A stretch of 22,706 nt of DNA from a virus: IMG/VR virus record IMGVR_UViG_3300028556_000042, positions 1 through 22,706 of that record. One strand, written 5' to 3'. The notes below the pieces were generated by a model, which worked only from the letters and a program-made list of their open reading frames with translations, ran no database searches and had not been told where the DNA came from. A program made the position numbers and the translations under genes. Shown piece after piece: positions 41 through 15,208 of this stretch. Each line of letters starts with the position of its first letter. The stretch's first letter is position 1.

Positions 41-712
41 TCACCCGCCTTGCCTATAAACAAATTGCCCGTGAATTTTTAAGTGCTCGGCGTCGGCAGC
101 GCTGATTTCCTCATCTGGATACCTCTGCTTATCTGGGTTGTCGCTTTCCAACACCCATGAGCCATTGATTTTTCTGCGTAGCCTTTTAATGCGCAGCCCG
201 TCCGGATGTTCAATTGCATAAATTCTGTTGCTCTGTAGTTCGCGCTTTGTCACATCAAATATGACCATGTCGCCATCAATGATGAAATTCGACATGCTTT
301 CACCATCGGCATATATCGCAAATAGGTTTTTTGGTTTGACTTGGTATTTTTTAAAGAAGCTAATTTCCTTGAGAAGCTTGCCTTTGGGCTCTATATCTTC
401 GTTAAAGGTGCCACCACCACAAGACCCTTTTGCTGCAAAGTAAGATATCTCGGCAACTTTGTGATCATCATGATTGAATACAGACTCCACTGTAAGGGTA
501 GGCTCTAGTTTTCTATCCCCCCGCCCCGTCTCCAGCCACAAAGCATTGACCTTCAATTCTTTTGCAAATGTTGCGACGAGAGTAGTCCCGGCCGATTCGC
601 CGTTTTCAAGCTCTGAGAGAGTGCCTTGTTTGATGCCGACCTTGGATGCAAGTTGTTTTTGCGTCAGGCCAAGCTCTTTCCTGCACTCTTTAATTCTGGT
701 TCCAATTGACAT
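41..712 (-). CDS. CI-like phage repressor (HTH plus S24 peptidase)
   Basis: This 223-aa protein is the probable lysogeny repressor. It should bind the operators just upstream and shut off the rightward early promoter. Residues about 5-60 form an XRE-type helix-turn-helix (LGLTQKQLASKVG, then QGTLSELENG). The C-terminal half is a LexA/CI/UmuD S24 peptidase domain, with nucleophile Ser139 in ADGESM and general-base Lys176 in LRIKRL. The linker has SCGGG at residues 97-101, so self-cleavage may occur at Cys98-Gly99, as in UmuD, rather than at Ala-Gly. The frame stays open 74 codons upstream, but I chose the ATG at 710-712 because the protein then begins at a normal HTH N-terminus. No convincing Shine-Dalgarno precedes that ATG, and a TAATAT -10-like hexamer lies 4 nt upstream, so a leaderless message like lambda PRM is plausible. 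Family assignment is firm; the cleavage site is inferred. Confidence 0.93.
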   Translation of the reverse strand: MSIGTRIKECRKELGLTQKQLASKVGIKQGTLSELENGESAGTTLVATFAKELKVNALWLETGRGDRKLEPTLTVESVFNHDDHKVAEISYFAAKGSCGGGTFNEDIEPKGKLLKEISFFKKYQVKPKNLFAIYADGESMSNFIIDGDMVIFDVTKRELQSNRIYAIEHPDGLRIKRLRRKINGSWVLESDNPDKQRYPDEEISAADAEHLKIHGQFVYRQGG

Positions 713-775
713 TCCGATATTATTGCGACAATTGCAATCGGAATTCCTATTGACATTAAATATCGGAGTTCCTAT
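705..775. promoter_or_regulatory. Operator cluster between cI and cro (three related sites)
   Basis: Three related 14-bp imperfect palindromes lie here: 705-718 (read on the minus strand as ATCGGAATGTCAAT), 737-750 (ATCGGAATTCCTAT) and 762-775 (ATCGGAGTTCCTAT). Centre-to-centre spacings are 32 and 25 bp. The first overlaps the cI start codon. The second abuts the -35 of the rightward promoter. The third covers its spacer and the start of its -10. The layout is that of a three-site CI/Cro operator. Binding is inferred. Confidence 0.75.
717..743 (-). promoter_or_regulatory. Possible leftward cI maintenance promoter
   Basis: Read leftward, TAATAT (717-722) is a fair -10 placed 4 nt before the cI ATG. 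The best -35 is poor (TTCCGA at 738-743), and the spacing is slightly short. A weak -35 next to the middle operator would fit an activated PRM-type promoter that makes a leaderless or nearly leaderless cI message. This is an inference from position. Confidence 0.4.
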
Positions 776-778
776 ACT
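750..778 (+). promoter_or_regulatory. Rightward early promoter (PR-like)
   Basis: A perfect -35, TTGACA at 750-755, is followed by exactly 17 bp and a -10, TATACT, at 773-778. The expected start is at about 785-786, which is the A of the cro ATG, so the cro message should be leaderless. Operators at 737-750 and 762-775 touch or overlap both promoter elements, as expected for a repressed lytic promoter. Confidence 0.85.
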
Positions 779-785
779 GCATTCC

Positions 786-986
786 ATGGACATACAAAAT
801 ACCCTTTCAAGGCTGCTCAATGCAGGCCTTACACAAGTCGAAATTGGCAAAGCCATCAACCGCAGCCAAGCGACGATATCCGAAATGGCTACCGGCAAGT
901 CTGGATGCACGCGGCCATCTGCTGACGTGGTCATTGGCCTTGAAGGGCTGCTTCAAAAGCATTTGCTTAATACCAATAAAAACTAA
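786..986 (+). CDS. Cro-like HTH regulator
   Basis: A 66-aa protein encoded divergently from the repressor and driven by the strong promoter at 750-778. Residues 15-34 (LTQVEIGKAINRSQATISEM) form a clear helix-turn-helix, and the rest is a short helical tail. Size, position and orientation match a Cro or Cro-like antagonist of CI. The reading frame is open upstream to 474, but that part lies over the repressor gene and the operators, so the ATG at 786 is the sensible start. No Shine-Dalgarno is possible if transcription begins at 785-786. The family is recognised only at the level of a small phage HTH protein. Confidence 0.85.
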   Translation: MDIQNTLSRLLNAGLTQVEIGKAINRSQATISEMATGKSGCTRPSADVVIGLEGLLQKHLLNTNKN

Positions 987-4254: not shown

Positions 4255-5033
4255 TGGCGCTCGAATGGTTCCGCATGTATTCAGAATTTGCTTCAGACCC
4301 AAAAGTCCAAAGCATGACCGAGCCAATGCAGCGCAGGTTGATAATGGTTTTATGTCTGCGTTGCAGTAACACCCTTGTAACGTTACATGATGACGAGATC
4401 GCTTTTGCACTAAGAATCAGTGAAGACGAACTCGCGCAAACAAAATCACTTTTCATTAAAAAGGGTTTTGTTAATGATGCATGGGAGGTCATGAACTGGG
4501 ACAAAAGGCAATTTGCCTCAGACTCAAGCGCAGCAAGGGTTGCAAGGCATCGAGAGGCAAAAAGACAAGCCCAAAAACAACCCGAAACACATGATGTAAC
4601 GGGTGGTAACGTTACAGTAACGCCCCAGATACAGAACAGAACAGATACAGAACAGATACAGAAACAGAGTAAAGAAAAACCTTTGTCGGCTTCGCCGCCG
4701 GATGGATATCCCGAAGAGTTCGAGGAAATCTGGCAGGCATACCCACCGAGGCCAGGTGCAAGCAAAAAAGATTCGTACAAAGCCTGGGCAGCACGGCGCA
4801 AGGAAGGCGTGACGGCTGAGGATTTGCTTGCTGGCGTTCTGCGATACGCGCAGTACGTGAACCGCGACCGTACCGCACCAAAATTCGTCAAACAGCCGGT
4901 TACATTTTTTGGTCCTGGAGAGCATTACAAGGCCGATTGGGCGATTGAAGCCCGGGCTTCGCCGCATTCAAAGCACTCAGGTTTTGACAAAATTGACTAT
5001 GACGCGGGGATGAAAAATGGACGAATCGAATAG
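4254..5033 (+). CDS. Phage replication initiator (O-like)
   Basis: A 259-aa protein with two domains joined by a polar Gln/Thr-rich linker. Residues 1-90 (EWFRMYSEFASDPKVQSM, then VMNWDKRQF) look like the winged-helix N-terminus of phage replication-organiser proteins. Residues about 150-235 (EEFEEIWQAYPPRPGASKKD, then KFVKQPVTFFGPGEHYKADW) form a C-terminal module common in such proteins and probably contact the helicase loader encoded next. The pairing with a DnaC-like gene mirrors lambda O and P. The linker DNA carries iteron-like repeats (4596-4667), so the origin may lie inside this gene. The start overlaps the rusA stop (TAATG). Exact family name is uncertain. Confidence 0.82.
   Translation: MALEWFRMYSEFASDPKVQSMTEPMQRRLIMVLCLRCSNTLVTLHDDEIAFALRISEDELAQTKSLFIKKGFVNDAWEVMNWDKRQFASDSSAARVARHREAKRQAQKQPETHDVTGGNVTVTPQIQNRTDTEQIQKQSKEKPLSASPPDGYPEEFEEIWQAYPPRPGASKKDSYKAWAARRKEGVTAEDLLAGVLRYAQYVNRDRTAPKFVKQPVTFFGPGEHYKADWAIEARASPHSKHSGFDKIDYDAGMKNGRIE
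4366..4387. repeat. GTAAC half-sites and 12-bp palindrome
   Basis: GTAAC occurs at 4366-4370, and a perfect palindrome TGTAACGTTACA lies at 4376-4387. The inner 10 bp (GTAACGTTAC) recurs at 4606-4615 in the same gene. These may be initiator or repressor binding sites near the replication origin. Confidence 0.45.
4596..4667 (+). repeat. Iteron-like cluster, candidate replication origin
   Basis: Four GTAAC half-sites (4596-4600, 4606-4610, inverted 4611-4615, 4617-4621) are followed by three direct repeats of AGATACAGAACAG or its one-base-longer variant (4627-4639, 4643-4655, 4654-4667). An A-rich stretch follows. The cluster encodes the hydrophilic linker of the initiator. Lambda's origin likewise consists of iterons inside the O gene, so an origin is a reasonable inference. 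The repeat may partly reflect a low-complexity linker. Confidence 0.55.
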
Positions 5034-5799
5034 AATCAATATGACAACGGATACAAGGGCAGCGAGTTGTGAATCCCATGGTGATTACACCTCGACAGCA
5101 TTCAAGCTTGGCGACAGAATTTTGCACTGGTCAGCGTGTCCGTTGTGCGCTGCCAGTGCCAAGACTGAGCGCGAGCAAGCAACAGCGCAGCGTGACGCGG
5201 AAGAAAGGCAAAAGCGCCTGGAGTCTAGGCTCAACAAGACCGGCATTCCGATGCGGTACCGGTCCAAGGACTTTGGCACTTTTATTGCGGATTCCGACGA
5301 AAAGGAAAAAGCCCTGGTCGTGGCTATGGAGTTTGCAAACAACTTCGCAAAGCATCGTGCGACTGGATCCACATTGCTTTTTCTGGGGCTACCAGGGACC
5401 GGCAAGAGTCACCTGGCCATCAGCATAGCCAAACACGTCATGCTGACGCAAACAGTGCTGTACACGTCTGCTATCGATGCTGTACGCATGATCCGCGACA
5501 CCTGGAGCCGCACATCTACGCAGACCGAAAGCCAGATTTTGTCATTGCTGGCTAGCATCGACTTGCTGATCTTGGACGAGGTGGGCGTCCAGTACGGGAC
5601 AGAAGCCGAGCAAATCACCCTGTTCGACATCATCGATAAACGGTACCGGGACTTGATGCCTACAATTTTACTAACAAATCAAAACAGCAAAGGACTGCGC
5701 GAATTTCTTGGTGATCGTAGCTATGACCGCCTCAAGGAAAACGGAACATCAGTTTTGTTTAAGTGGTCATCCCATCGCGGAACGGCGTTAGCAGAATGA
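5017..5799 (+). CDS. dnaC: DnaC-like AAA+ helicase loader
   Basis: A 260-aa ATPase expected to load the host DnaB helicase at the phage origin. An N-terminal zinc module (C18-x2-H21 and C41-x2-C44) is followed by a charged coiled stretch and the AAA+ core: Walker A GLPGTGKS at 124-131, Walker B LLILDE at 183-188, sensor-1-like LLTNQN at 218-223, and a terminal RSYDRLKENG segment with a candidate arginine finger. This is the DnaC/IstB-like group used by phages in place of lambda P. A GGGGA Shine-Dalgarno at 5006-5010 precedes the ATG at 5017, and the first 17 nt overlap the initiator gene. ATG 5041 is a less likely alternative. Confidence 0.92.
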   Translation: MDESNRINMTTDTRAASCESHGDYTSTAFKLGDRILHWSACPLCAASAKTEREQATAQRDAEERQKRLESRLNKTGIPMRYRSKDFGTFIADSDEKEKALVVAMEFANNFAKHRATGSTLLFLGLPGTGKSHLAISIAKHVMLTQTVLYTSAIDAVRMIRDTWSRTSTQTESQILSLLASIDLLILDEVGVQYGTEAEQITLFDIIDKRYRDLMPTILLTNQNSKGLREFLGDRSYDRLKENGTSVLFKWSSHRGTALAE

Positions 5800-6017: not shown

Positions 6018-6418
6018 CAGCAAAATTCCATGCGGTTGACAAGGAACAAGAGCAGCGCGATCTTCTGATTTACTGGCTGGACCAGTGGGCATTGTGGATG
6101 AACAACAACCATGCAGAAATCGCCAGGGACACCGGCGCTGGCGGTGAATCCATCGGAAAAAACGCGGTTAGCAATTTCTCGGTAGCTGCTGACGATTGCC
6201 ATTCAGTCTGGGACATCGAGCGGGAAAAGAAGGTCAGGGAGATAGACGCTCTGATCAATGATTTGCGACTGGAACAGCCCTGGACATACTGGGCAATCTG
6301 TAAGCGCATGGGCCTCATGAACTTCTGGAAGTATCCCAAGCTTGACCCGAACGAGGCATTTATCAATGCGCTGGAAGAGCTGCAGTACATGTGTGCGCAA
6401 AGAAAATTTGTGCCTTAG
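6014..6418 (+). CDS. Probable Q-like late transcription regulator
   Basis: A 134-aa protein at the end of the early operon. The central and C-terminal part (KVREIDALINDLRLEQPWTY, then WAICKRMGLMNFWKYP) looks like the helical DNA-binding tail of phage antitermination or late-activator proteins. No zinc motif is visible. The stronger evidence is context: it is the last early gene, and a promoter-like sequence plus a strong terminator follow at once, before the terminase genes, as in lambda Q-pR'-tR'. It could instead be a late sigma-like activator of the RinA/ArpU kind. Starts at an ATGA overlap. Confidence 0.6.
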   Translation: MTAKFHAVDKEQEQRDLLIYWLDQWALWMNNNHAEIARDTGAGGESIGKNAVSNFSVAADDCHSVWDIEREKKVREIDALINDLRLEQPWTYWAICKRMGLMNFWKYPKLDPNEAFINALEELQYMCAQRKFVP

Positions 6419-12325: not shown

Positions 12326-12338
12326 TCAGTAATTAAAA

Positions 12339-12370
12339 CGTCGTGAGACGCCGCGCCCGGGCAACCGGGC
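12339..12370 (+). promoter_or_regulatory. Tandem GNRA-tetraloop hairpins in scaffold leader
   Basis: Hairpin one is CGTC-GTGA-GACG (12339-12350). Hairpin two is GCCCGG-GCAA-CCGGGC (12355-12370). Both have GNRA loops. The scaffold Shine-Dalgarno AGGAG follows at 12378-12382. No U-run follows, so this is not an intrinsic terminator. The first hairpin shares its frame with hairpins at 13375-13386 and 14873-14884. Confidence 0.7.
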
Positions 12371-12390
12371 AATGACCAGGAGTGTAGAAA

Positions 12391-13374
12391 ATGGACAATC
12401 AGGCATCTGAATCCAGCAGTGAAAATAGCAGTACAGCATTAAATGTTGACGGTGGGGCCCAAGCCTTCGCCGCTTTTCTGGACCCGCAAGAGGCACCCGG
12501 GAAGAGCGCCCAAGAGTTGGAAAAGGAAGCGCTGGAAGACGTAACCAAGCAGCCTAATCAGCAACAAGAGCAAGACCTAGAGTTGCAACAGGCAGAGCTC
12601 GATGCAGGACAGGAAACAGTCACCATCAAAGTGGATGGCAAGGATGTGACCTTGAGTACTGCTGAGCTGGCAGATGCCTACAAAAACGGTCTGCGCCAGG
12701 CTGATTACACGCGCAAGACCATGGAAGCCGCCGAGCAGCGCAAAGCTGCTGATGCGCAAATCCAGCAAGCCCAACAAGAGCGCCAAGCCTATGCAAACAA
12801 CTTGCAGAAAATGGCAGCGCAACTTGAGGAAGTGCTGCAAGAGCAACAAGGAATAGACTGGTCAGAATTGCTTGAAAATGACCCGCGTCAATATCTGATG
12901 CAAAAAGACCTCTTTGAGAAGAGACAACTCGCGTATCAGAAAAATATTCAGCAACAGCAGCATATCGCTGCACTGAACCAGCAAGAACAAGCCGAGCATT
13001 TGGCACGTCACCTGTCAGACCAGCAAGCTGAGCTGCTTGCCAAGGTGCCTGACTGGAAAGACCCCAAAAAAGCAGAGGCAGAATCAACCGCTATCAGTCG
13101 CTATCTGGCTGAGCAGGGCTTTGATAAGAACACTGTCGATTCCGTCACTGACGCGAAGACAATTCTGATATCCCGCAAAGCCATGCTTTACGATGCAATG
13201 ATGGCAAAGGCGAATGCTGCCGCCAAAAAGGTGGCAGAAGTGCCGCAAAAAGTAATTAGACCAGGTGTAAGTGGCAACAACCAGGACAGTGACAAAGACG
13301 CCGCGCAAATGCGCAAATTGGCAAAATCTGGCCGGGTTGAAGACGCCGCCTCACTTTTCGCAAAATTCATTTAA
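12391..13374 (+). CDS. Capsid scaffolding protein
   Basis: A 327-aa protein directly before the major capsid gene. It is strongly hydrophilic, with Ser-rich and Gln-rich acidic segments, a short folded region (TVTIKVDGKDVTLSTAELAD), then long predicted coiled coils (residues about 100-230). A basic amphipathic C-terminal helix (AAQMRKLAKSGRVEDAASLF) could bind the capsid protein. These are the usual traits of an assembly scaffold that is removed from the prohead. No protease fold is visible. A tandem hairpin leader and a strong AGGAG site suggest high expression. Confidence 0.85.
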   Translation: MDNQASESSSENSSTALNVDGGAQAFAAFLDPQEAPGKSAQELEKEALEDVTKQPNQQQEQDLELQQAELDAGQETVTIKVDGKDVTLSTAELADAYKNGLRQADYTRKTMEAAEQRKAADAQIQQAQQERQAYANNLQKMAAQLEEVLQEQQGIDWSELLENDPRQYLMQKDLFEKRQLAYQKNIQQQQHIAALNQQEQAEHLARHLSDQQAELLAKVPDWKDPKKAEAESTAISRYLAEQGFDKNTVDSVTDAKTILISRKAMLYDAMMAKANAAAKKVAEVPQKVIRPGVSGNNQDSDKDAAQMRKLAKSGRVEDAASLFAKFI

Positions 13375-13386
13375 CGTCGAGAGACG
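13375..13386 (+). promoter_or_regulatory. GNRA hairpin in major-capsid leader
   Basis: CGTC-GAGA-GACG forms a 4-bp stem with a GAGA tetraloop. It starts right after the scaffold stop and lies 2 nt before the GGAG Shine-Dalgarno (13389-13392). Its end is 12 nt from the capsid ATG, the same distance as the hairpin at 14873-14884 from its own ATG. Confidence 0.65.
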
Positions 13387-13398
13387 CTGGAGAAAGAC

Positions 13399-14322
13399 AT
13401 GACAGCACCAAGCAATACCTATGTGACCACATCGGCGATTGGTAACAAGGAAGATCTCAGCGATATCATCTATCGCATTTCGCCAACCGCCACGCCTTTG
13501 ATGAACATGGCAGCCAAGGCCAAGGCCAGCAATACGCTGCATGAATGGCAAACACAGGATCTGGCAGCTGCGGTAACCACCAATGCACAGGCCGAGGGCG
13601 ACAACGCAAGTGCCAAAACTGTTACACCGACTGTTCGTATAAGTAACCGTACTCAGATCGCCTCTAAAACGGTGATCGTGTCCGGCACTCAACAGGCCAT
13701 GAACCCGGCAGGCCGCAAGGATGAACTGGCGTATCAGCTGTCCATGGCTTCGCTGGAACTGAAGCGTGATATGGAATCGGCCTTGTGCCAGCTGGACGTG
13801 GCCGCAACATCGCCACGCCAGGCACGTGGCCTGGTCGGCTGGGTTGTCGATAACGTCGACCGCAACGGCGGCACCCTGGCGTCATACACAGGCAACACTG
13901 GACGCACAAAAGGTACAGCACGGGCATTTACTGAGGCACAGCTGAAAAACGTGCTGCAGAAGTGCTATACAGCCGGTGGCGAGCCTGACACAGTGATGGT
14001 AGGCCCTGCACAGAAGCAAACATTTTCCACATTCAGTGGTAATGCAACCCGCTTCGACAAATCCGAAGACGCCAAACTGTACGCAGCAATTGACGTGTAC
14101 GTTTCCGACTTTGGTTCTTTGAAGGTGGTACCGAACCGCTTCCAGGATGCCAACGACGTGTTTGTATTGCAAGCGGACAAGCTGGCACTGGCTTACCTGC
14201 GCCCGTTCAGCACTATCGAACTGGCGACGACAGGCGATGCAGTGCAGCGTGAACTGGTGGTGGAATACACGCTGGAATGTCGCGCACCGAAAGCACATGG
14301 TGCGGTCTACGACGTTCTGTAA
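13399..14322 (+). CDS. Major head (capsid) protein, SU10-like/DUF5309
   Basis: A 307-aa shell protein. The N-terminus (TYVTTSAIGNKEDLSDIIYR, then SPTATPLMNM and HEWQTQDLAAA) and the following ISNRTQIASKTVIVSG are typical of the DUF5309/SU10 major head protein family, which adopts the HK97 fold. Later segments (EPDTVMVGPAQKQTFSTF, FGSLKVVPNRF, VFVLQADKLALAYLRPF) fit the A-domain core. It follows the scaffold gene, as is usual, and has its own hairpin leader and GGAG site, in line with very high expression. Length is normal for the family. Confidence 0.93.
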   Translation: MTAPSNTYVTTSAIGNKEDLSDIIYRISPTATPLMNMAAKAKASNTLHEWQTQDLAAAVTTNAQAEGDNASAKTVTPTVRISNRTQIASKTVIVSGTQQAMNPAGRKDELAYQLSMASLELKRDMESALCQLDVAATSPRQARGLVGWVVDNVDRNGGTLASYTGNTGRTKGTARAFTEAQLKNVLQKCYTAGGEPDTVMVGPAQKQTFSTFSGNATRFDKSEDAKLYAAIDVYVSDFGSLKVVPNRFQDANDVFVLQADKLALAYLRPFSTIELATTGDAVQRELVVEYTLECRAPKAHGAVYDVL

Positions 14323-14332
14323 TTAACAGCAT

Positions 14333-14352
14333 AGGGCGGCTTAGGCCGCTCT
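14333..14352 (+). promoter_or_regulatory. Hairpin between capsid and downstream structural gene
   Basis: AGGGCGGC (14333-14340), loop TTAG, and GCCGCTCT (14345-14352) form an 8-bp stem with one G-U pair. It is followed immediately by the GGAAGGGG ribosome-binding site (14353-14360), not by a U-run. It could stabilise the capsid message or tune the next gene. Confidence 0.65.
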
Positions 14353-14366
14353 GGAAGGGGATACAA

Positions 14367-14837
14367 ATGTCAGTTAATTTAATACAGCGTCCAGATGGTG
14401 GTGCGGATTTGCAGGATGCCAACGGGGCTGCAGTGGCCTCGTTTGGTGGCGGCGTACAGAACTATCGCAGCGCCAAGATAGCAAAGATCGCTATTGCTGG
14501 TGTTGCGGCTACCACTGGTGGTGCGCTTTTCTCATGGGCTAATCCTGAGAATAGTTCCATCATCATTGAGCGCTTCCAGATCGATATCACAACCAAATCA
14601 ACAGGCGCGGCCAATGGCTCGTTCGGGGTGGCAGCAAACGGTACCACATCAAGCGCAAACTTGATCGATACCTATGCGCTAGGCGGCACTGAGAAGGTAG
14701 TTGATAACCATGTCGACGGTTCTACAAATGGCAAGTTCGTGCAGAAAATGACGACTTCGCAGTATGTGACCGGCACAGGCTCTGCGACTACAGCTGGCCT
14801 AGTTGGCTTCGTGTATATCCACTACTACGTGATCTAA
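14367..14837 (+). CDS. Beta-rich small virion protein, possible decoration protein
   Basis: A 156-aa Gly/Thr/Ser-rich protein encoded directly after the capsid gene. Predicted beta strands dominate (SSIIIERFQIDITTKSTGAA, then LVGFVYIHYYV at the end), with several Ala/Gly loops. Position and composition suggest a capsid decoration or stabilising protein. I do not recognise a named family. The ATG at 14367, with GGAAGGGG upstream, was chosen over the open frame reaching 14277 inside the capsid gene. Confidence 0.75.
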   Translation: MSVNLIQRPDGGADLQDANGAAVASFGGGVQNYRSAKIAKIAIAGVAATTGGALFSWANPENSSIIIERFQIDITTKSTGAANGSFGVAANGTTSSANLIDTYALGGTEKVVDNHVDGSTNGKFVQKMTTSQYVTGTGSATTAGLVGFVYIHYYVI

Positions 14838-14842
14838 AAACA

Positions 14843-14861
14843 GGCGGGTGAAAGTCCCGCC
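14843..14861 (+). promoter_or_regulatory. GC-rich hairpin after the decoration-like gene
   Basis: GGCGGG (14843-14848) and CCCGCC (14856-14861) form a 6-bp all-GC stem with a 7-nt loop. The next bases, ATTTAATTAAA, are A/T-rich but not a clean U-tract. It may be a 3' stability element or a weak attenuator. Confidence 0.6.
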
Positions 14862-14872
14862 ATTTAATTAAA

Positions 14873-14884
14873 CGCTGAGAAGCG
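14873..14884 (+). promoter_or_regulatory. GNRA hairpin in leader of the 103-aa gene
   Basis: CGCT-GAGA-AGCG has the same frame as the capsid and scaffold hairpins, but the lower base pairs have changed together (CGTC/GACG to CGCT/AGCG). AGGAG follows at 14886-14890 and the ATG lies 12 nt after the hairpin. The compensatory change supports a selected RNA structure. Confidence 0.65.
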
Positions 14885-14896
14885 CAGGAGAATTTC

Positions 14897-15208
14897 ATGG
14901 ATGGTGCAATAACCGTATCAAGCCAAGGCTCAACCACTGGCATTTCAATTGCCACATCCGGCACGTCTGCCAGCGCAACAATACCGAACATGTCAACCGG
15001 TGAGTTGCCGCGCTTTATCCGTGTGGCTGCTACCGCTGCAGCTTGTGTGCGTTTGGCGGCTTCTGGTACGCCAACTGCAGTAACAACTGATCTTCAAGTC
15101 CAGCCAGGTGACGCTGTAATCCTCAGCGTGAACGGCAACACAAAGATAGCAGCAATACAGGTATCTGCTGCAGGCGTGGTGCAGGTCTCCCCGCTGGAGA
15201 ATATGTAA
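14897..15208 (+). CDS. Small beta-rich virion protein, 103 aa
   Basis: A Ser/Thr/Ala-rich protein with alternating beta pattern (LPRFIRVAATAAACVRLAAS, then LQVQPGDAVILSVNG and KIAAIQV). Such short beta proteins encoded just after the capsid are often decoration or head-completion proteins. I do not recognise a specific family. It has its own hairpin leader and AGGAG site, suggesting separate tuning of expression. Its TAA overlaps the next ATG. Confidence 0.7.
   Translation: MDGAITVSSQGSTTGISIATSGTSASATIPNMSTGELPRFIRVAATAAACVRLAASGTPTAVTTDLQVQPGDAVILSVNGNTKIAAIQVSAAGVVQVSPLENM

Follow-up and report, generated by a model that had tools for sequence, protein, structure and literature searches.

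One small RNA element recurs at the translation starts of head and other particle genes in many bacterial viruses, most of them uncultivated, that are unrelated to one another. The element is described here from the window, a 22,706-base IMG/VR fragment, and from related and unrelated phages. Judged by sequence comparison, it is an RNA structure under selection of about 25 nt, consisting of an outer helix, a 3x2 internal loop, a 4-bp stem, and a GNGA loop. In the reading preferred here, with a probability of roughly 55%, it is a cis-acting element at virion-gene ribosome-binding sites, read by a trans factor that would set translation for all the particle genes together. The recurrence in many viruses suggests a common switch or tuner for virus-particle production that has so far gone unrecognised. 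The features of the window are as follows.

12339-12350, plus strand: inner hairpin CGTC-GTGA-GACG in the scaffold leader, without outer helix, ATG 40 nt downstream
12355-12370, plus strand: second GNRA hairpin GCCCGG-GCAA-CCGGGC, found by folding, between the scaffold-leader element and the scaffold Shine-Dalgarno, AGGAG 12378-12382
12391-13374, plus strand: scaffold protein gene (phrog_3927, PHROGs)
13368-13392, plus strand: whole capsid-type element, made up of a UAA flank, the inner hairpin, CU, and the GGAG Shine-Dalgarno at 13389-13392
13375-13386, plus strand: inner hairpin CGTC-GAGA-GACG in the major capsid leader, found by pattern match and covariance model
13399-14322, plus strand: major capsid protein gene (phrog_1328; Pfam SU10_MCP)
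14866-14890, plus strand: whole element of the 103-aa leader, its GGAG at 14887-14890, the outer helix weak (two U.G pairs)
14873-14884, plus strand: inner hairpin CGCT-GAGA-AGCG in the leader of the 103-aa gene, found by pattern match
14897-15208, plus strand: gene of about 103 aa, 3' of the capsid gene, assigned to no family by PHROGs or Pfam; the element is found in 28 of 52 unique orthologous leaders

A short hairpin had been claimed by the initial annotation in the scaffold, capsid, and 103-aa leaders. All three hairpins are present at these positions on the coding (+) strand, and they are the sole matches to the pattern CGYYGNGARRCG on both strands of the window (exactly 3, with 0.23 expected; 1 of 100 shuffles of the window reached 3). 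A covariance model scores the capsid copy (13368-13392) at 31.8 bits, E 2.6e-7, and the 103-aa copy (14866-14890) at 29.1 bits, E 1.6e-6. With filters off, it also finds the scaffold copy (12337-12352; 17.2 bits, E 0.0057). A fourth, weak match of the model to the window (4603-4628, E 0.013) is intragenic and without GNGA, and was dismissed.

The capsid and 103-aa copies do end 12 nt before their ATG, as had been stated, and in both of them GGAG starts 2 nt past the hairpin. The scaffold copy departs from this arrangement, with 40 nt between the end of the hairpin and the ATG at 12391. Each stem runs into CYGGAG or other sequence without the U-run that an intrinsic terminator has directly past its stem, and the earlier view that the hairpins are not terminators holds. 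The compensatory change that had been noted between the stems of the window copies is real but small, affecting two stem pairs. The weight of this evidence comes from the relatives, not from the window copies.

Capsid relatives were gathered from viral contigs and genomes, and comprise prophages of Undibacterium, Variovorax, and Pseudomonas as well as many uncultivated viruses. In their capsid leaders the stem occurs as CGTC/GACG, CGCC/GGCG, CGCT/AGCG, TGCC/GGCA, and GGTC/GACC. Viral contigs were then scanned with the pattern TAACGNNGNGANNCGCYGGAG, which leaves the two inner pairs free. Among the matches listed, the two free positions are complementary in 134 of 138 unique contexts, with C-G, U-A, and A-U all used, and a start codon is present in 131 of the 138, mostly 5-8 nt past GGAG.

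A second scan fixed the flanks only (TAACG, an 8-base gap, CGCYGGAG, 5 bases, ATG). With the eight core bases free, GNGA and both inner pairs appear in 61 of 68 contexts. A GNAA loop appears in none of the 68, although GNAA folds equally well. A reversed pattern, used as a chance control, gave 34 unique contexts compared with 163 for the forward pattern. Loops that are one base longer, GNGAN, are also found; of 61 contexts of this kind, 38 have a complementary stem and a nearby ATG. The loop had been called GNRA; it does have a GNRA-type fold, but the sequence that is kept, in nearly all well-formed copies, is specifically GNGA and not any GNRA. Rare copies keep the flanks and stem and have a UUGG or UUUU loop in place of GNGA (L431, approximately 5574-5602; G028, L304:1856-1880).

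The inner hairpin is only one part of the element. In a set of 221 copies chosen by inner stem, Shine-Dalgarno, and start alone, the flanks are conserved, with A at -2 in 206 copies and C at +1 in 187. The rest of the flank consensus is C/U at -4/-5, U at -3, A at -1, Y at +2, and GGAG. In 163 of the 221 copies, 2 nt separate the hairpin from GGA, and in 162 the start lies 5-6 nt past GGAG. From the conserved flanks, an outer helix is predicted that spans a 3x2 internal loop and has 3-4 bp of free sequence. The internal loop, in which one A hardly ever varies, is usually UAA/CY (YAA/CY or similar), and the inner 4-bp stem begins C-G, G-C. The short hairpin claimed at the outset is present, but the actual element is larger and two-tiered, including the outer helix and the internal-loop A.

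A test of the outer helix that is independent of the Shine-Dalgarno can be made with copies whose outer 3' strand is not a GGA Shine-Dalgarno, which are 44 of 164 unique copies. Three outer pairs form in 34 of these 44, compared with a mean of 5.4 and a maximum of 15 in 2000 shuffles, and the strands seen include UUUC/GAAA, CCUU/AAGG, GGG/CCC, GCC/GGC, and GCG/CGC. In an alignment of 98 sequences, the outer helix has a covariation score of 0.590, compared with 0.203 +/- 0.014 for shuffled alignments (0 of 500) and 0.13-0.21 for slid partners. All four outer pairs change on both sides. The rows of this alignment were selected for inner pairing, so support for the inner helix rests on the TAACGNNGNGANNCGCYGGAG and flank-only scans instead. 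The automatic consensus of RNAalifold contains the inner helix only, because the outer sequence is highly variable.

The UAA of the internal loop was also considered as a stop codon. The frame that ends at TAA is short in most TAA copies, and the hairpin begins directly past the stop of the upstream ORF in only 20 copies, so the UAA belongs to the motif.

In the capsid copy of the window, GGAG at 13389-13392 is the 3' strand of the outer helix, and only two U.G pairs are formed there. The weak outer helix of the capsid and 103-aa copies and its absence from the scaffold copy count against the preferred reading. The window lineage may be relaxing this helix.

The covariance model has 25 positions. 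When it was run on 81 genome pieces, approximately 95 copies were found at E < 0.1, all from element-bearing genomes, while ten element-free relatives gave no match under E 1. An ORF start with a Shine-Dalgarno follows 87 of the best 100 matches of this run. In the capsid-family loci, the model detects 164 copies with E values no higher than 0.1, and all 164 lie on the sense strand. Neither the Pseudomonas-phage loci that lack the element nor six named phages gave a match in this run.

The element is placed in three ways. In the capsid type, the Shine-Dalgarno is the outer 3' strand. In the scaffold type, it lies just downstream of the element. In the portal type, AAGG is the outer 5' strand, and the hairpin stands between AAGG and ATG. 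As in translational operator hairpins, a selected hairpin overlaps or abuts the ribosome-binding site. In the portal-type leaders of G021, G022, G025, G030, and G038 (for example L239:1368-1392), the fold would be needed to join the AAGG Shine-Dalgarno and the ATG. Tandem copies with differing stems precede a single gene in G039 (L290:6345-6369 and 6387-6411) and G036 (L256:894-918 and 927-952).

The element marks some genes and leaves others free. In unique leaders chosen by homology alone, the hairpin is found before 27 of 58 major capsid genes, 22 of 41 scaffold genes, 28 of 52 103-aa genes, and 13 of 35 portal genes, the portal of the window phage being SU10_portal. It is found in 1 of 39 unique TerL leaders, and in none of the tail-side leaders (94-aa gene, 0/68; SU10-adaptor, 0/68; 518-aa gene, 0/24). 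Control windows 300-700 nt upstream are about 1-2% positive, except for those of the 94-aa gene, which overlap the 103-aa leader.

Genomes tend to have the element at most of these genes or at none. Where three or four of the four leaders can be read, 24 genomes have no copy, 27 have three or more, and one or two are present in the remaining 3. The element label is strongly clustered on the capsid tree, where it needs 9 changes, at least 5 of which are forced by supported branches. Two carriers with the element at three genes each, L026 and L091, nest within the clade of the Pseudomonas phages, whose members mostly lack it. Judged by these leaders, the element is gene-specific and is gained or lost at several genes together. 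Such concerted gain and loss suggests dependence on a trans component. Between the copies within one genome, the stem sequence varies freely.

The initial annotation had proposed a selected RNA control element at high-output genes. Its first half is supported, as the element is found again in the leaders of homologous genes, and it also recurs in unrelated phages. The rule about output fails because the portal gene carries the element too, and “head/particle genes” is a better description. Tailed phages have approximately 12 copies of the portal protein per virion. The inclusion of the portal argues against a mere enhancer of high-output genes.

Downstream genes in unrelated lineages encode P22-type coat (phrog_283) and portal (phrog_156) proteins, a Mu gpT-like head protein (phrog_371), a decoration-like virion protein (phrog_1731), a major tail (tail-tube) protein (phrog_584), and others. 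The element is therefore common to phages with unrelated capsids. In the SU10-capsid family, the carriers with an assigned host are three from Undibacterium, one from Variovorax, and one betaproteobacterial MAG (103-aa gene). L091 is an exception, a MAG contig binned as Hyphomicrobiales. Four members of the family assigned to Pseudomonas are without the element.

In Undibacterium and Variovorax genomes, confident matches occur at the prophage only. The strict pattern was found in 1 of 398 Pseudomonadota genomes, where the inner pairs are not both formed and the match is taken as chance, and in 0 of 250 genomes of the order. No credible match was found in Venkman, ppBeUSDA76-2, the Manatee Spring uncultivated podovirus, HTVC106P, phiM5, a LUZ24-type phage, Rhodoferax P26218, EBPR podovirus 1, Pseudomonas KT1, Pantoea PdC23, SU10 (first 50 kb), or BPP-1. 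BLAST with short queries gave matches in microviruses and Rhizobium phages, but these are antisense within coding sequence and were discarded.

How might the element act? Factor binding fits best among the three functions that had been suggested earlier, as far as the comparisons tell. The factor would recognise the internal-loop A, the C-G/G-C step, and the GNGA loop. Specific recognition is suggested by the retention of GNGA where GNAA folds equally well, and by the near-fixed A and C-G/G-C step where other pairs vary. The sense-strand bias and the placement argue for action in translation rather than at the DNA level. Bound on or beside the Shine-Dalgarno, the factor would control translation of all the particle genes together, analogous to coat protein or Mu Com at their mRNA hairpins.

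Whether binding represses, by holding the outer helix over the Shine-Dalgarno, or activates is a guess, with repression seeming slightly likelier. A hairpin that keeps the Shine-Dalgarno open, another of the suggested functions, is a misfit, as the outer helix usually takes the Shine-Dalgarno in. Simple sequestration is not supported either: the predicted accessibility of the Shine-Dalgarno is 0.277, no lower than the 0.273 obtained with shuffled upstream sequence.

A profile by blastp and HMM families revealed no protein that is present in more than 10 of 27 element-bearing genomes and absent from 11 element-free ones, in contigs that are partly incomplete and from which small or fast-changing proteins could escape. 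This result, like the Shine-Dalgarno accessibility, counts against the preferred reading. The candidates left for the reader are a host factor, the host ribosome, and a fast-evolving small phage protein. Unrelated phages have the element in common, but the profile gave no phage protein common to them; a host protein, or the host ribosome itself, may therefore read the element. On a tentative and somewhat unlikely extension of this idea, the element would define a virion-assembly translational regulon, one RNA code taken up by unrelated dsDNA phages (SU10-capsid, P22-, Mu gpT-type, and others) because the same betaproteobacterial host RNA-binding factor or ribosome feature reads it.

Another model does without a regulator. 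The hairpin would be a standby or docking site, or an insulator, that raises or fixes initiation on the host ribosome. The fixed 2-nt spacing (163/221), the GGAG-start distance of 5-6 nt (162/221), and the pyrimidine-rich upstream strand agree with this. So do the presence of the element in unrelated phages with no shared phage protein, and the mainly betaproteobacterial hosts assigned to capsid-family carriers, the Pseudomonas members being without it. However, a docking geometry would not easily permit a hairpin before, over, or between Shine-Dalgarno and ATG. The GNGA-only loop and conserved internal-loop A exceed what an insulator needs, and other genes of the same operons, like host genes, lack the element. 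This model is somewhat unlikely.

Processing of the mRNA is less probable again. A nuclease would cut the unpaired UAA-rich flank, and the hairpin would shield the new 5' end of the head-gene mRNAs. The flank 5' of the window hairpins is indeed unpaired and A/T-rich or pyrimidine-rich, and polycistronic operons have one copy per gene. End protection nevertheless requires neither GNGA, nor the internal loop, nor a second covarying helix across the flank, and it leaves the fixed Shine-Dalgarno distance unexplained.

It is very doubtful that the copies are antitermination (nut) sites of the boxB kind, read by an N-type peptide. Lambdoid boxB resembles the element in its short stem and GNRA-type loop, sometimes with an extra base (GNGAN, as in the 38 complementary copies near an ATG). 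But the element has no conserved boxA, and its upstream bases track outer-helix pairing (UUUC, CCUU, GGG, GCC). It occurs in many copies, at the ribosome-binding sites of several late particle genes rather than in one leader. No N-like protein turned up in the general shared-family search (27 vs 11 genomes). An inverted repeat acting in double-stranded DNA, as operator or promoter, is hardly credible: such a palindrome would likewise yield paired changes in both arms, but all 164 matches lie on the gene's sense strand directly against the Shine-Dalgarno, with a fixed non-palindromic GNGA centre and stems that vary freely among one genome's copies.

The operators of RNA phages (MS2/R17) and the Mu Com/mom system are among the nearest known counterparts: in them a short hairpin, in which an unpaired A or the loop is conserved, overlaps the ribosome-binding site of a phage gene. 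The element similarly presents a hairpin with a conserved A and loop at the ribosome-binding site of phage genes. Unlike these systems, it is found at several genes per genome and in unrelated dsDNA phages, its loop is GNGA, and its cognate protein is putative. The coat-protein translational operator of phage M is kin to the MS2/R17 operators (PMC3561173).

FourU thermometers, which sequester the Shine-Dalgarno, are comparable in that the pyrimidine strand of the element often pairs with GGAG across the apical hairpin. In contrast to them, the outer helix excludes the Shine-Dalgarno in 44 of 164 unique copies and still covaries, and the element has a conserved internal loop and GNGA but no four-U rule. 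Comparative analysis of phage and metagenome sequences revealed the manA and wcaG leader RNAs (Weinberg et al. 2010, PMC2864571). The element is likewise a structured leader RNA found by comparison, but it precedes virion genes rather than metabolic genes and has a different structure.

Rfam 15 has no gathering-threshold match in the window, and nothing up to E 10 at the element in L066, L071, L096, and L167, so that the comparison with Rfam matched no family. A literature search, the 2017 survey of bacterial RNA motifs aside, found no description of the element. A structured ribosome-binding site or translational operator is a known kind of control; as a family, the element appears to be new.

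In double-stranded DNA phages, little is known of particle genes whose translation is coordinated through one shared RNA signal. The element is small and absent from Rfam, covariation supports it strongly, and it recurs in several genes and lineages, so that its reader can be fished for directly. Should a host factor read it, this would be a case of unrelated phages plugging into one host RNA-binding system, and the element would also be a small, portable part for translation control.

Other structures share these leaders. In close relatives, a different hairpin occupies the position of the second scaffold-leader hairpin (12355-12370). A hairpin of the type GGG-(T/C)G(A/G)AAGT-CCC with flanking pairs lies at 14843-14861 of the window, just 5' of the 103-aa element. 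The same type lies just 3' of the scaffold-leader element in relatives (L004 from 4390, L041 from 6949, and L086 from 6953), and may be another shared leader part. Distinct from the element is a strong hairpin at 14333-14351, GGGCGGC-TTAG-GCCGCTCT, with a fold z-score of -3.2. It is in the leader of a 156-aa ORF between the capsid and 103-aa genes. Finally, a repressor-like ORF is located at the left edge of the window (41-934, minus strand), with a helix-turn-helix and a LexA-type end recognised by eye, which suggests a temperate phage.
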